The notes below the pieces were generated by a model, which worked only from the letters and a program-made list of their open reading frames with translations, was not told where the DNA came from and did no database searches. This document shows, in pieces, positions 51,177-57,751 of a stretch of DNA of 63,151 nucleotides (positions are counted from its first letter, which is position 1; each line of letters starts with the position of its first letter). The DNA lies in assembly GCA_028287465.1 (NCBI GenBank), contig JAQBPO010000081.1, positions 1 through 63,151 on the forward strand. The letters run 5' to 3'. Origin of the DNA: Fibrobacterota bacterium (GTDB lineage: Bacteria; Fibrobacterota; Fibrobacteria; UBA11236). Made by a program: the position numbers and the translations under genes.

Positions 51177-52287
51177 CTTCGGGATCCCGGGATTGGATTT
51201 CCGCGTCCTCGTCCGGATCGGCCGGGCGGGAGAGATCGATCACCGGCGCCTTGATGCGCTCGAGGATGAGCAATACCCGATCCTGGGTGGTATTGGGAAT
51301 GCGGTAGGCATGATTGCGCAGCACCTTGTATTCATCGCTCTGGAACACCGCCATTTCTTCCGCGGCCTTGGGGCCCTTCATGAAGATGGCCTTGCCGCCC
51401 ACCGGGAGGCAGCTGCCGAAGCGGGGAAGGGTATGCTCGACGGTCTCGAAGGCGCGGGTGATGGCGGCCGCGAAGGGTTGGGTGAGGCTCCTCGATGTGA
51501 CCTTATGGCCGAAAACGGATATGTCCTTCAGGCCCAGCTCCCGGATCACCATCTCCAGGAATTGCACCCGGCGCGGGCGCGGTTCGGCCAGCACGATTTG
51601 CGTGGACGGGGACATCAATTTGATCATGATGCCCGGGAAACCCGCTCCCGTCCCTACGTCCACCATGGGGGAGGGCCATTTGCCTTTCATCAGGCCGTGC
51701 AGGATCATGCAATCGGCGTAATGCCTTTGCGCGATGGTATCGAATCCGATCAGGCGCGTCAGGTCCTGGTCGTGGTTGTGCTCCCGCAGCAGTTGGTGAT
51801 ACGCCCAGAGTTGATCCAGGGTTTGCGGCTGCAGGTGCACGCCGTACCGGGCCATGAGCTGGCCCAGGGCCGGCTTCGAAGGCCGGATGGATTCGGCCTG
51901 GCCCTGACCCGGCGTCGTGAAACGTTTGCCGCGGATCGGCTTGCCCGCGAAGCCTCCGGGGCCTTTCCCCCGCGCTCCGGGCCCGCCGGGTCCTTTACCG
52001 GCCGATCCCTGGCCGCCGGAGTTCCGCGTGTCCGAACCCCATCCGTCCGGGGCTCTCGCGCGCTGATTGTCGGAACCGCCTCGTGCCTTATTGACTTGAC
52101 CTTTGGATCCGGGAGTCCGCGCGCCCTGATTCGCCGAACCTTGCCCGCCCGGTCCTCGACCGGCCTGTCCCCGACCGGCCGGTCCCTGACCGCCTTGTCC
52201 CTTATCCGCCGGACCTTGCCCCCCCGGACGCTGCCCTCCGGGTCCTTTCCCGGGTTCACCGCTTCCGGCCGGTTTGCGAGGTCTCAT
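51169..52287 (-). CDS. rsmG: 16S rRNA m7G527 methyltransferase with a long Gly-rich N-terminal tail
   Basis: 372 residues against about 210-240 for normal RsmG. Residues about 140-345 are the enzyme, with TRLIGFDTIAQRHYADCM and the SAM motif MVDVGTGAGFPGIMI (208-222). Residues 1-138 are a low-complexity tail rich in Gly, Pro, Gln, Lys and Arg (repeated GGQGP, GKGPGG, GRGQAGRG), resembling RGG-type RNA-binding tails. The DNA there is repetitive, so the length may vary between strains. There is no alternative start that removes the tail and keeps the ATGA coupling with glnE. It methylates N7 of G527 in 16S rRNA. Confidence 0.9.
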   Translation of the reverse strand: MRPRKPAGSGEPGKGPGGQRPGGQGPADKGQGGQGPAGRGQAGRGPGGQGSANQGARTPGSKGQVNKARGGSDNQRARAPDGWGSDTRNSGGQGSAGKGPGGPGARGKGPGGFAGKPIRGKRFTTPGQGQAESIRPSKPALGQLMARYGVHLQPQTLDQLWAYHQLLREHNHDQDLTRLIGFDTIAQRHYADCMILHGLMKGKWPSPMVDVGTGAGFPGIMIKLMSPSTQIVLAEPRPRRVQFLEMVIRELGLKDISVFGHKVTSRSLTQPFAAAITRAFETVEHTLPRFGSCLPVGGKAIFMKGPKAAEEMAVFQSDEYKVLRNHAYRIPNTTQDRVLLILERIKAPVIDLSRPADPDEDAEIQSRDPEDG

Positions 52288-55200
52288 TGATTCTCCCGGG
52301 ATGCATCCGCTGGCAGATTGGTTTCATATCCGAAAAGGGTGCCGGACAGCTCCAGCAGGGTGAGCATATGCTGGCGGTAACGCGCGCGGAACTGGGCGGA
52401 AGCGCTTTGCCCGAGGCGTTCCTCGAAGCCCATCCGTTTGGCCAGCTTTTCAAGTTCCTCCGAGGAGGCGGGCAATTCGTGCCTTTGTTGCAGGCCCTGC
52501 AATTGCAGGACGTGCTCGATGCGGCGAAGGAACACGTAACTCTTGGAGAGCAGGTCGTGGTAATTGGGGCTGAGCAGGCGGTACCGGTAGAGGCGGCCCA
52601 GGACGGTCAAGGTATTGCCCGAGATCAATTCCGGAATCGCCCGGCCATGGAGGACTTGCAGGTACTGGACGTAGAATTCGATGGTCCGGATGCCGCCGGG
52701 CCCGAGTTTCACTTCCGTGGAAAGCCGGTTCTCCTGCTTAAGCTTGTCCAGGCCCAGTTGCCGCACCTTGCGCATGCTGGTTTCGATCTTTTCCCGGTTG
52801 GCCGGATCCAGGGTGACGGCCTGGACCCGGCGTACCACGTCCCGTCCCATGTCCAGGTTGCCCGCCACCGGCCGCGCCTTGAGCCAGGCCTGCAACTCCC
52901 AGCCTGAGGCTTCGCCGCGGAAATACGCGTCGTAGTGGCCGAGCGAGCCTATCAATTGCCCCTGACCGCCGTAAGGGCGGAGCTGGGTGTCCACGCGGAA
53001 CATCTTGCCGTGGGATCCGGCGGCGCTCAAGGCCGAAATGAAAAGCCTGGCCCATCCCTCCAGGGAAGGGATTCCGGCCTGGGATACCTTTTCGGGATCG
53101 TATACGAAAACGATATCGATGTCGGAGCTGTAGTTGAGTTCATTGCCGCCTAGCTTCCCCAAGGCGATCACCGTGATCGCATCGCGCATGTGGATCGTTT
53201 CCGCCGCTGCCATGGAATGGCCGAAGGCGGATTCGATCAAGGCGTTGGATAGATGGCTGATTTCCGCGGTGATCCGGTGCAGGTGCTCGCCCAGCCAGAT
53301 ATCGCGCAGGCCGATGCGCAGGTATTCCCGGTTGCGGTAGCGCCTCAGGCTGTCCATCGCCTCTTCGAAGCCGTCCATGAAGGGCGTCATCTCCAGGATT
53401 TCCTGATGGAACTCCGCAGGAAGTTTCGGCTTTTCCAGCGTCGACGCATCGCCCAGGGTCATCAGGTATTCCGGCTGGCGGATCAGGATGTTGGCCAGGT
53501 AATCGCTATGTCCGAATGCCTTGATCAGGATTTCGTTCAGGTACGGATGGTTGAGCAGCTGACGGACGAAGTAATCCGGATCGGGAAGGGCTTCCAGGTA
53601 CTGTCCGAGATGGCGGAGCACCGATTCCGCGTCGGGACTCGCGCGCAATTTGGGCGCGGCCACCACCAGGGCGGCGCAAAGGATCCCTTTCTCACGCACC
53701 GGCTCAAGCATGCCCTTGACCAGGTCCGGGCCCGAAGCCGGGTGGAAGACGCCGAGACGGCGCAAGGCCTTTTCCAACCGCCTGGGAGGGCCGTCCGCCT
53801 CGAGGAATGCGGCCGTGATGGAGACTTCCGCCTCCTCGTCATTCCCGTCCCGGGATGCGTGGGCAGCTTCATCCGGCGAGAAGGCGTTTTCCAGGAAGCG
53901 CAGCGCGAATATGCCATGGACGTCCTTGAGGACATGCTGCAGATCCCAATCCAGCTGGGCGTCGGGCTCGAAGCGCGCGGTAGGGAGATAACCCATGCGT
54001 TTGGCCAAGTACAGGAATTCGTCCGATCCGCGCGGCGGCACCATCAAATCGCGGGAATGCCCGCGGACCATGCGCAATGCGTTGATGAGCCGGCGAAGGA
54101 AGACGTAACCCTGGTAGAGCTTTTCGAATTCCGCGGGGTCGAGTATCCCCTCCTCGAGCAGGGCTTCCAGGGCCGCTTCCGTATTGGGTTCGCGCAGGTC
54201 GGGGAACTTCCTCCCGTGGCGGAGCTGCAGGAACTGGACCGTGTACTCCACTTCCACCAGGCCCCCGGGGGAGAACTTGGCATTCACTCCTTTGGCGCCC
54301 TTCAGTTCCACCTGCTTCGCCCGCAAGGTCAGGGTATGGGCGATGTCCACCGCTCCTGCGCCGAAGACCAGGGAGTCCCGGGCCGCCATCACCTTGTCCG
54401 CGAATTCGCGGCTGCCCGAGATGGGCCGTAATTTGAGCAAGGCCTGCCGCTCGTAATCCAGGGCGCCGCCGTCCTCGCCGTAGTATTCGTTCCAACGGTC
54501 CATCTGCGAGGCGAGGGGACCGCTGTCGCCATGGGGACGCAAGCGCAGATCGAGCTCGAAAATCCCCTCGTTCCGGGTCACGATGATTTCCCGCATGCCG
54601 GAGACCACCCGGGAGAAGAATTCCCCATGGCTGATCGGGTCCGGTCCACCTTGGGTCTCCCCGGAGGCGGCGTAGATCAATTGCACTTCCAGATCGGAGG
54701 CGTATCCGAGTTCGCGCCCGCCCAGCTTCCCTTGGGCGAAGAGTCCGAAAGGGCAGGGGCCCTCTCCCAGCCGCGGCTCGCCGTGCTCCCGGACCAGGCG
54801 CCCGTAGGCCAATCCCATGGCCGTGGTCAGGGTCACCTCGGCGAGGTTGCTGATCTCGGCGGAGAATTCCTGCAGGGTCTTGAGCGGAAAGATGAGGTGG
54901 ACCGCTTCCAGCCGGAAAAGCTGGAAGTCCTTGAAGCGGTTCAAGGCGGCAGCCTTGGCCGGTACGGCGGATTCCCTGTCCACCGATTCCCGCAGCATCT
55001 GTTCCAGTTCCCTGCGCGTGGAGGGTTTCTTTTCGTCGTCCAGGCGATGCAGCAATCCCGTGACCTCGCCCAGGGGGAGCTTGGTCATTTCCTCCCACAG
55101 GTAGGGGCCTGCCCCCAGGATTTTCGCCAGGGAGGACAGGAAGGTGAAGTCCTCGACGGCGGGCAGGTCGGGACGGCCACCGGATTGATCCATCAGGGCA

Positions 55201-56165
55201 TCGATGAAGTCGTTGAAGGCCTGGATGGCCGCGGGATAATCCGAGGCCTGGGGCAAGGTGGACATGAAGCGTTCCATCAGGATGATGGCCACCTTGAGCC
55301 GTTCAAGGGTATGGGGATTGGTGATGGAGTGGCCGAGGGTATCCGTTATGAAAATGCGGTCTTCGAAGCTGTGGCCCTCGGATCGCGTCAGGAGCTTCTG
55401 GATGGAGACGCCTTGGAGGGCCAAAGCATTGCTCAGGGAGAAAAGCAGGGCCTTGCGATCCGTGCCGCGCACCGTCAGGATGGCATGCCTTTCGTCCGCG
55501 TCGATATGGATTTCCAGGGGCAGGCGGGCGTCCTGCGGCATTTCGTTCTCGCTACCGCCCATGGTCGCGTACGAACCTTCCGTCCCATTCGCCCGCGCGG
55601 GGGCGGAACCCGCCTTGCCGCTGATATAGGCCCCGATCCGGCGATATAGGTCCACCCGCAGTTCCTGGGTCTGGCGCGCCTGCAACAGGCCTATCAATCG
55701 CTCCAAATCGGCGAGCAGGCCGGCCTGGAATTCCGGCGTCAATACTCCGGGAACCCGGTGCCCCAGCACCAGGTAATCGATGATCTTGCCGCGGGCCGGA
55801 AGGTCGTCCCGGGAAACCGTCCCGATCTCGAGTCCGGAGCCGTAGCTGAAGACCTTGCCCAGGCGGATATCGAAATCGTAACTCGCCAGCACCCCGGACA
55901 AGGCCGCGAAGAAGCCGGGAAGGTCTTCGCCGATGACGGTGAGGCCCCAGGCATTTTCATCCAGGCGATCGAATTCGAAGGAAAAGGGCCGGGAACGGGT
56001 CAGGGCGGCGATGCGGCGGAGATGGCCCTCTATCTCGGCGATGCTGAATTCATTGAAGTAATCGGCATCCAAGCGGCGGGCGTGATCCGCCACCAGCCCA
56101 GGGGGGAATCCCGCGGCATTTTCGAGGATGCGTGTCTTCTTTTCGGAGGGAGTCAATGGCTCCAT
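52284..56165 (-). CDS. glnE: Glutamine synthetase adenylyltransferase fused to two N-terminal ACT-like domains
   Basis: 1,293 residues from ATG 56165; normal GlnE is about 950. The extra N-terminal 300 residues contain two ACT-like units. Unit one is at about 72-115 (WGLTVIGEDLPGFFAALSGVLASYDFDI). Unit two is at about 216-292 (HAILTVRGTDRKALLFSLSNALALQGVSI, then EDRIFITDTLG). Both follow the pattern of the GlnD C-terminal ACT domains. The first nucleotidyltransferase domain (deadenylylation half in the E. coli enzyme) has GYASDLEV, with Asp491 and Glu493 where D-x-D is usual; LRLRPHGDSGPL follows. The second (adenylylation half) is canonical: NYSSDIDIVFVYD with Asp1015 and Asp1017. It controls GlnA, whose gene lies immediately upstream. 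It overlaps rsmG by four bases. PII-type GlnB and GlnD are not in the window. Confidence 0.92.
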   Translation of the reverse strand: MEPLTPSEKKTRILENAAGFPPGLVADHARRLDADYFNEFSIAEIEGHLRRIAALTRSRPFSFEFDRLDENAWGLTVIGEDLPGFFAALSGVLASYDFDIRLGKVFSYGSGLEIGTVSRDDLPARGKIIDYLVLGHRVPGVLTPEFQAGLLADLERLIGLLQARQTQELRVDLYRRIGAYISGKAGSAPARANGTEGSYATMGGSENEMPQDARLPLEIHIDADERHAILTVRGTDRKALLFSLSNALALQGVSIQKLLTRSEGHSFEDRIFITDTLGHSITNPHTLERLKVAIILMERFMSTLPQASDYPAAIQAFNDFIDALMDQSGGRPDLPAVEDFTFLSSLAKILGAGPYLWEEMTKLPLGEVTGLLHRLDDEKKPSTRRELEQMLRESVDRESAVPAKAAALNRFKDFQLFRLEAVHLIFPLKTLQEFSAEISNLAEVTLTTAMGLAYGRLVREHGEPRLGEGPCPFGLFAQGKLGGRELGYASDLEVQLIYAASGETQGGPDPISHGEFFSRVVSGMREIIVTRNEGIFELDLRLRPHGDSGPLASQMDRWNEYYGEDGGALDYERQALLKLRPISGSREFADKVMAARDSLVFGAGAVDIAHTLTLRAKQVELKGAKGVNAKFSPGGLVEVEYTVQFLQLRHGRKFPDLREPNTEAALEALLEEGILDPAEFEKLYQGYVFLRRLINALRMVRGHSRDLMVPPRGSDEFLYLAKRMGYLPTARFEPDAQLDWDLQHVLKDVHGIFALRFLENAFSPDEAAHASRDGNDEEAEVSITAAFLEADGPPRRLEKALRRLGVFHPASGPDLVKGMLEPVREKGILCAALVVAAPKLRASPDAESVLRHLGQYLEALPDPDYFVRQLLNHPYLNEILIKAFGHSDYLANILIRQPEYLMTLGDASTLEKPKLPAEFHQEILEMTPFMDGFEEAMDSLRRYRNREYLRIGLRDIWLGEHLHRITAEISHLSNALIESAFGHSMAAAETIHMRDAITVIALGKLGGNELNYSSDIDIVFVYDPEKVSQAGIPSLEGWARLFISALSAAGSHGKMFRVDTQLRPYGGQGQLIGSLGHYDAYFRGEASGWELQAWLKARPVAGNLDMGRDVVRRVQAVTLDPANREKIETSMRKVRQLGLDKLKQENRLSTEVKLGPGGIRTIEFYVQYLQVLHGRAIPELISGNTLTVLGRLYRYRLLSPNYHDLLSKSYVFLRRIEHVLQLQGLQQRHELPASSEELEKLAKRMGFEERLGQSASAQFRARYRQHMLTLLELSGTLFGYETNLPADASRENQ

Positions 56166-56184
56166 TTCCCGTCTAAAATAGAAA

Positions 56185-56214
56185 CAAAAAAAGACTCCCG
56201 TTTCCGGGAGTCTT
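56185..56214 (-). terminator. Terminator between glnA and glnE
   Basis: On the minus strand a perfect 10-bp stem (56191-56200 with 56205-56214) closes a GAAA loop and is followed by a run of seven T residues counting the stem end. It ends only about 20 bases before the glnE start codon, so it can also act as an attenuator for glnE. Confidence 0.88.
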
Positions 56215-56270
56215 CCTGGCCCCCGTTGCCGGGGGGACTCTAACGGAAACGGATAGGAACACTGTAAACG

Positions 56271-56350: not shown

Positions 56351-57751
56351 CTATCCGTGGTAGTAGAGCTCGAACTCGTACGGGTTCGGACGCAGCTTCA
56401 ACGGTTCGATCTCGGCGGCCTTCTTGTAGCTGAGGTAGGCCTCGACCATGTCCGGGTCGAAGACGTCGCCGGCCAACGCCCATTCCTTGTCCGCCTCGAA
56501 AGCGGCATGGGCCTCTTCGAGGTTCTTGGACGTGGAAGGGATGTTCTTCAGCTCTTCCGGGGGCAGCTCATAGATGTTCTTGTTCATCGGGGCGCCGGGG
56601 TCGATCTGCTTCTTGATGCCGTCGACCATGGCCATCAGCATGGCAGCGAAGGTCAGATAGGCGGATCCGGAGCTGTCCGGGCAGCGGAACTCGAAACGGC
56701 GGGCCTTGTCGCCCTGCACGTGCGGGATGCGCACGGACGCGGAGCGGTTGGTGGCCGAGTAGGCTAGGTTCACGGGCGCTTCGTAACCGGGCACGAGACG
56801 GCGATAGCTGTTCACGCTGGAGTTGGAGAACACCTGGATGGACCTGCCGTGCTTGATGATGCCGCCGATGGCGTACATGGCCGTCTTGCTGAGGTTGGCA
56901 TAGCTGTCGCCGGCGAAAAGGTTCTTGCCTTCCTTCCAGATCGAGGTATGGACGTGCATGCCGGAACCGTTGTCGCCCCACATGGGCTTGGGCATGAAGG
57001 TGGCCGTCTTGCCGTACTTGGCGGCCGTGTTCTTCACGCAATACTTCAGCTTATGCACCTGGTCGCCCGCGAGGACGGCGGTGTTGAACTTCACGCCGAT
57101 CTCGCACTGGCCCGTGGCCACCTCGTGATGGTGGATTTCCGGGGTCAGGCCCATCTTGATGAGATTGGTGACCATCTCATTGCGGACGTCCATCAGGGTG
57201 TCCTGGGGAGCGGCGGGAGCGTAGCCGCCCTTGAAGCCGATCTTATGTCCCAGGCTGCCTTCGGCGTTCGAGGTCCAGGGACCTTCGCCGGTATCGATGG
57301 TGTAAGTGCCCTGGCGCGGATCGCTATTGAAGCGGATGCCGTCGAACACGAAGAACTCGGGTTCCGGACCCATGAAGGCGAGGTCGCCGATGCCGGTGGA
57401 CTTCAGGTATTCCAGGGCCTTCTTGGCGATGGAGCGGGCATCGCGATTGTAGGGCTGGCCCGTGCGGGGTTCGATGATGTCGCAATACATGCCCAAGGTG
57501 GGGGCTACGACGAACGGATCGATATAGGCGGAAGCGGGGTCCGGCCGCATGATCATGTCCGAAGCTTCGATGCCTTTCCATCCGCGGATGGAGGAGCCGT
57601 CGAAGGCCATTCCGACCTTGAACATTTCATCGTCGAGGCGGCTCACCGGAAAGGTGAAGTGATGCAGTTGACCGAACATATCTCCGAACAACAGGTCTAC
57701 GAATTGGACTCCGTTGTCCTTGGCAAGTTTCATGACTTCGGCGGGGGTCAT
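56351..57751 (-). CDS. glnA: Type I glutamine synthetase, adenylylatable form
   Basis: 466 residues. It carries the GS signatures FDGSSIRGWKGIEASDM (50-66), MGPEPEFFVFD, MPKPMWGDNGSGMHVH (ATP/glutamate site) and NRSASVRIP. Tyr394 in NIYELPPEEL is the equivalent of the adenylylated Tyr397 in E. coli GlnA, so this is the GSI-beta type under GlnE control. It makes glutamine from glutamate, ammonia and ATP as a dodecamer in the cytosol. AGGAG lies rather far (about 13 bases) upstream of the ATG. It is followed by two terminators and then by glnE. Confidence 0.97.
   Translation of the reverse strand: MTPAEVMKLAKDNGVQFVDLLFGDMFGQLHHFTFPVSRLDDEMFKVGMAFDGSSIRGWKGIEASDMIMRPDPASAYIDPFVVAPTLGMYCDIIEPRTGQPYNRDARSIAKKALEYLKSTGIGDLAFMGPEPEFFVFDGIRFNSDPRQGTYTIDTGEGPWTSNAEGSLGHKIGFKGGYAPAAPQDTLMDVRNEMVTNLIKMGLTPEIHHHEVATGQCEIGVKFNTAVLAGDQVHKLKYCVKNTAAKYGKTATFMPKPMWGDNGSGMHVHTSIWKEGKNLFAGDSYANLSKTAMYAIGGIIKHGRSIQVFSNSSVNSYRRLVPGYEAPVNLAYSATNRSASVRIPHVQGDKARRFEFRCPDSSGSAYLTFAAMLMAMVDGIKKQIDPGAPMNKNIYELPPEELKNIPSTSKNLEEAHAAFEADKEWALAGDVFDPDMVEAYLSYKKAAEIEPLKLRPNPYEFELYYHG

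Follow-up and report, generated by a model that had tools for sequence, protein, structure and literature searches.

How does a glutamine synthetase adenylyltransferase (GlnE) receive its signals when the enzyme itself carries domains that resemble a sensor? The question is raised by a glnE gene in a 63,151-nucleotide stretch of DNA (hereafter the window) from a bacterium of the phylum Fibrobacterota. A first-pass annotation of the sequence had reported two N-terminal ACT domains in this protein, and had suggested that a built-in glutamine sensor makes GlnD and PII dispensable. The explanation that we consider fairly probable is that a regulatory module of GlnD was fused once to GlnE, that glutamine acting through this module biases GlnE, and that the module adds to the input from PII and replaces that from PII-UMP where there is no GlnD.

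The extended GlnE and its GlnD-type module

At 1293 aa, the GlnE of the window exceeds the 946-aa GlnE of E. coli by 347 residues, close to the surplus of about 340 first reported. The extra length is N-terminal: essentially no residues of E. coli GlnE align with positions 61–306, and the extension of ~308 residues consists of a helical segment and two ACT domains. The interval originally highlighted, 55290–55952, corresponds exactly to residues 72–292. We place the start codon at the ATG at 56165 because close relatives carry a stop codon just upstream of the equivalent ATG. A start at 56483, which gives a mechanically derived ORF of 1399 aa, was rejected because that frame would share sequence with glnA and is closed by stop codons at this place in close relatives.

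Table 1. Features of the glnE-glnA locus, and activator genes near glnE/glnA in relatives in which GlnD was not detected.
Feature	Position	Strand	Basis or remark
ACT-GlnE CDS	52284..56165	minus	1293 aa + stop; ATG at 56165
C-terminal nucleotidyltransferase half	52326..53768	minus	PF03710 880–1107, PF08335 1144–1278; adenylylation domain in E. coli GlnE
D1015-I-D1017 (SSDIDI)	53115..53123	minus	intact DxD of adenylylation domain; alignment with E. coli GlnE
N-terminal nucleotidyltransferase half with GlnD_UR_UTase helical domain	53886..55238	minus	PF03710/PF08335; deadenylylation domain in E. coli GlnE
D491-L-E493	54687..54695	minus	second metal-site acidic residue is Glu; D-I-D in E. coli
ACT2, residues about 216–306	55248..55520	minus	TDRKALL at 235, FEDRIF at 267; Pfam ACT above gathering score
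Linker, residues 166–215	55521..55670	minus	predicted helix to about 185, disordered beyond
ACT1, residues about 61–165	55671..55985	minus	GEDLPGFF at 79, GKIIDYL at 126; low-confidence insert 111–123
Pre-ACT helical segment, residues 1–60 (RRLDADYFNEFSIAEIEGHLRRI)	55986..56165	minus	hhalign; matches GlnD segment before ACT1
glnA, type I glutamine synthetase	56351..57751	minus	TIGR00653, 605.8 bits (cut-off 429); immediately upstream of glnE
glnA Y394 codon (KNIYELP)	56570..56572	minus	adenylylated tyrosine position; alignment
NifA-like GAF-sigma54 activators	L118 15105–16676, L120 12687–14288, L122 1099–2667		one over NifA cut-off (548 bits vs 529)

Judged from its sequence, the protein is probably a bifunctional glutamine synthetase adenylyltransferase/deadenylylase. 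PF03710 matches two stretches (9.5e-84), as does PF08335 (2.5e-41), the fold of the N-terminal half matches 1v4a (Foldseek, TMt 0.79), and the protein does not reach the cut-offs set for GlnE equivalogs in NCBIfam. Like E. coli GlnE, the protein has two nucleotidyltransferase halves, each with PF08335, the DxD of the C-terminal half, and a glnA target tyrosine; it differs in carrying the 308-residue ACT module, which E. coli GlnE lacks, and in having D-x-E rather than D-x-D in the N-terminal half. In an alignment with E. coli GlnE, SD-[LIM]-E replaces SDID in the deadenylylation half of all 18 ACT-GlnEs (16 from Fibrobacterota and two from genomes of one outside group). Since the nucleotidyltransferase motif generally tolerates Dh[DE]h, we read D-x-E in this half as a family signature that may be compatible with activity.

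As first annotated, glnA adjoins glnE and keeps its target tyrosine (Y394), and its product is presumed to be the target of this GlnE. Between the two genes lies an element (56175–56217, minus strand) in which a strong hairpin bearing a T tract (56188–56217) is followed by TTTGTTTCTATTTT and which ends ~10 nt before the start of glnE. In five relatives from the genus (L004, L005, L006, L009, L017), hairpins with a T-rich tail and a TATTTT stretch recur at the corresponding location. The element could either terminate glnA, with only a very short gap to glnE, or act as a glnE attenuator. Between glnA and glnE, no Rfam family, riboswitches included, reached its gathering score.

Several lines of evidence relate the extension to GlnD. 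Pfam ACT matches residues 229–291 (with the extension alone, E 1.2e-7 and 31.8 bits; with full-length GlnE, 27.4 bits; cut-off 27), and ACT_6 matches residues 76–100, in ACT1, just below threshold (22.1 bits vs 23). NCBIfam models for GlnD match residues 219–294 and, weakly, 52–282, and positions of about 605–845 of the GlnD model TIGR01693 match the N-termini of GlnE proteins from relatives. A profile of eight GlnE extensions aligned by hhalign with a profile of 11 GlnD C-termini over 228 columns (probability 99.35, E 6.4e-21), and this alignment spans the pre-ACT helices, ACT1, linker and ACT2. No HD domain match was found in GlnE; hence, the layout of a whole GlnD (nucleotidyltransferase, HD, ACTs) is not present.

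The AlphaFold2 model of the extension, for which eight sequences were used as input, has a pLDDT of 80.8 and a pTM of 0.79. Four helices are predicted before ACT1 (H6–15 H22–31 H34–39 H42–54). The elements of ACT1 (E72–80 H85–95 E99–108 E127–135 H144–162) follow the ACT order, ACT2 is modelled as E228–235 H240–250 E254–263 E266–274 H284–306, and pLDDT falls below 50 in the linker at 185–213. Foldseek matched the predicted module to GL3 ACT-like 9c7n (TM 0.72–0.79, prob 1.0) and to the ACT region of the large glutamate dehydrogenase of Mycobacterium smegmatis (prob 0.99–1.0). A search of PDB sequences with the extension gave one chance match, and the solved relatives were reached by fold alone. 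A two-domain model of the module with the deadenylylase half has a pTM of 0.65, which is too low to place their contact or orientation.

Because the Pfam and NCBIfam matches, the hhalign alignment and the ACT folds retrieved by Foldseek agree, we conclude that the extension is, by sequence and by model, the C-terminal regulatory module of GlnD placed at the front of GlnE. Thus, the two N-terminal ACT domains originally described are borne out, including by the structure prediction that had been recommended as a check, and the proposed kinship with the GlnD sensor is stronger than claimed, since it extends beyond two ACT folds to the whole module. The limits first given, 72–115 and 216–292, do mark real ACT domains; ACT1 is larger, at about 61–165, and includes a disordered insert. 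The order of parts (pre-ACT helical motif, ACT1, linker, ACT2) is that of the GlnD C-terminal region. The ACT-GlnE module differs in being N-terminal and without an HD domain, in having mostly Ala at the glycine of the ACT2 loop, in its ACT1 insert, and in the long branch that separates it from GlnD.

Distribution and ancestry of the module

The search covered 168 genomes from the phylum, a plasmid collection, and a small outside group represented by two genomes. GlnE is present in 16 of the 168 Fibrobacterota genomes, and every one of the 16 has the extension; a seventeenth match (G165) is the GlnD of that genome and was not counted. The extension is also found in a PVC-group bacterium (L010/G168) and in the only other genome searched from its phylum (G170). 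The plasmid collection yielded matches in 30 records, all of which covered less than 80% of the query; the 15 matches listed begin no earlier than query residue 293. The pairing of an ACT domain with GlnE was not found in the open-access papers searched; the architecture may have been noticed elsewhere, for instance in preprints or protein databases.

When 18 GlnE modules were placed in a tree with 12 GlnD tails (root not fixed), the GlnE modules lay on one side of a single branch (support 100/100), with a long branch to GlnD. Because the GlnE modules group together, apart from the GlnD tails, one fusion is favoured over repeated ones, and the sequences suggest a single, old fusion of a GlnD-type module onto GlnE. 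With distance, identity to the GlnE of the window declines at roughly the same pace in the module and in the catalytic halves, and far faster in the disordered linker, which is the least conserved part of the module. It is conceivable that the module descends from a tailed ancestor, given that GlnE and GlnD have nucleotidyltransferase and PF08335 domains in common, and is an inert relic of that GlnD-like protein, kept by chance. We consider this highly improbable: no GlnE without the module was found in the phylum, and the module is still conserved in the outside group, at 25% identity, where its inner linker is not.

The pattern of conservation also bears on whether the module still binds a small ligand. 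ACT domains often pair, the disordered insert in ACT1 varies among ACT-GlnEs, and the small residue of the ACT2 loop, which is Gly in GlnD and Ala in most GlnEs, is Phe in G040 and G168. These features would suit a module that is mainly structural, oligomerising GlnE or docking PII or glutamine synthetase, with ligand binding gone. Retention in sequence of both ACT domains and the pre-ACT segment across very distant members, and of the ACT2 loop Asp in nearly all ACT-GlnEs, argues against such a role, which we regard as improbable. Nonetheless, the substitutions at the ACT2 loop glycine leave room for a different ligand, or for loss of the site, in some GlnEs.

GlnD and PII in genomes with ACT-GlnE

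Can an organism with ACT-GlnE do without GlnD and PII? The window's genome encodes an intact GlnD, a 952-aa frame on contig C60 that runs from the nucleotidyltransferase domain through two ACTs and that exceeds the NCBIfam cut-off once its pieces are joined (615 vs 519 bits). It also encodes two PII proteins, both with Tyr51, one of them beside amtB. Absence of GlnD and PII from this genome is ruled out by these genes, and the proposal that a built-in sensor lets this organism dispense with them is wrong. The same proposal fits seven relatives with ACT-GlnE (G036–G040, G168 and G170), in which GlnD was not detected. The genome search for glnD and glnB that had been called for finds the pair intact in the window's genome, which is the first part of what had been named as refuting the proposal, and no GlnD in these seven relatives.

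Five of the seven genomes (G036–G040) are Fibrobacterota from families f11 and f12, with a completeness of 77–98%. PF08335 domains occur in them nowhere but in GlnE, which has two, and no TIGR01693 match in them spans a GlnD; the matches correspond to the GlnE N-terminus and to scattered HD or ACT proteins. The best match to the GlnD model is the GlnE N-terminus in G168 and the GlnE catalytic domain in G170. All seven are draft assemblies, two of them with no completeness stated; an assembly gap is unlikely to account for the missing GlnD in f11 and f12, given five separate absences.

Position 51 of PII, numbered by E. coli GlnB, has lost its Tyr in nine of the ten PII copies of these seven genomes, with F, I, N or E instead. 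The remaining copy, in G170 (L133, G170:C59:3376-3690), has Tyr at 51 in a non-canonical, GQQ-type T-loop, though no GlnD was found there. Where a genome has GlnD as well as GlnE, every correctly aligned PII has Tyr51; L143 of G162 failed to align (score 50) and was left uncounted. PII proteins without Tyr51 also occur in members of the phylum that have neither enzyme; hence, loss of Tyr51 tracks loss of GlnD and not the fusion. There are two exceptions: G023, which has GlnD and no GlnE, has one PII without Tyr51, and G032, which has neither enzyme, has Tyr51.

Two further arrangements were observed. G160 (L008/G169), rated 100% complete, has ACT-GlnE (C38:8908-12588) and GlnD (C76), and PII was not detected in it, reflecting either an assembly gap or a PII-free cascade. 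In G019, G023 and G031, which lack GlnE, genes for GlnD-like proteins of 838–882 aa (L128, L127 and L132, respectively) adjoin PII genes.

In G040 and G170, as in the window, glnA adjoins glnE; in G036 it is ~10 kb away. All four glnA genes keep the target tyrosine. The clusters of G036 and G040 also include PII, amtB or a frame of amtB size, and an activator of the GAF-sigma54 type that resembles NifA. The NifA-like activators score 509 and 510 bits in G036 and G040, and 548 bits in G170, against a cut-off of 529. In these GlnD-less relatives, the glnE clusters look like nitrogen-control islands. G036 additionally has a GAF-PEP-utilising protein (PtsP/EI-Ntr-like; L118 10321–12609, minus strand) between two amt-PII pairs.

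Proposed ligand and function of the module

What might the module contribute to GlnE? The ACT domains of GlnD are considered glutamine sensors (PMC3173338), and to that extent the premise from which the built-in sensor was deduced holds. It is incomplete, in that glutamine also acts directly at an allosteric site of E. coli GlnE, which has no ACT domains (PMC5448240). Because E. coli GlnE already has this site, the module would add or replace an input rather than create glutamine sensing from nothing. Both this site and the full GlnD/PII pathway in the window's genome count against the explanation that we favour.

We propose that the pre-ACT helices, ACT1 and ACT2 of GlnD were fused, once and long ago, onto the N-terminus of GlnE. 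The ligand of the tandem ACT module would be an amino acid and, by analogy with the proposal for GlnD, most likely glutamine. Bound ligand would push GlnE towards adenylylating, and thus inactivating, glutamine synthetase, and low ligand would push it towards deadenylylation. In the window's genome, the ACT input would act together with the ordinary route from GlnD through PII/PII-UMP to GlnE. In relatives without GlnD, where PII is mostly not uridylylatable at Tyr51, the module would assume the role of the PII-UMP signal, and replacement of the GlnD/PII-UMP signal by ACT-GlnE is possible wherever GlnD is missing. We infer that the module could act independently of PII; PII can still signal without uridylylation in the GlnD-less lineages, and GlnE may use both inputs. 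More tentatively, some lineages may have a GlnE that reads the amino acid itself, GlnD having been lost and PII being purely non-covalent, such that the bicyclic cascade, which takes two enzymes in E. coli, has collapsed into one enzyme.

An alternative function for the module is to sense another amino acid, such as glutamate or a nitrogen-rich end product, as a second and different input to GlnE. The long branch between the GlnE and GlnD modules, the different β1-α1 loops (DRKALL and DTPAFL in GlnE vs DRIGLL in GlnD), and the sensing of glutamine elsewhere in E. coli GlnE (PMC5448240) are consistent with this idea. So are the best-scoring solved folds, which are ACT regions of glutamate dehydrogenase: by Foldseek E-value, the closest is the large, 180-kDa NAD-glutamate dehydrogenase (7jsr, 9hv0), likewise a nitrogen enzyme with ACTs, which differs in being another enzyme and in having only 12–16% identity to the module. 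However, no sequence relative closer than GlnD, itself considered a glutamine sensor, was found, glnA and glnE are adjacent, and ACT-GlnE stays where GlnD is lost. We therefore regard a different ligand as unlikely, and retain glutamine as the preferred one. The plant ACT-repeat proteins ACR11 and ACR12, for which a connection to glutamine synthetase has been proposed, also have two GlnD-like ACTs in tandem (PMC3173338); they differ in being stand-alone proteins without a catalytic domain.

The GlnD-PII-GlnE-glutamine synthetase cascade is a textbook regulatory system. Lineages that keep ACT-GlnE without GlnD and without the uridylylation site of PII offer a natural experiment on each tier of this cascade, and the presence of glnE does not imply a cascade that depends on GlnD. 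ACT-GlnE would also allow amino-acid sensing and modification of glutamine synthetase to be assayed together in one self-contained protein.
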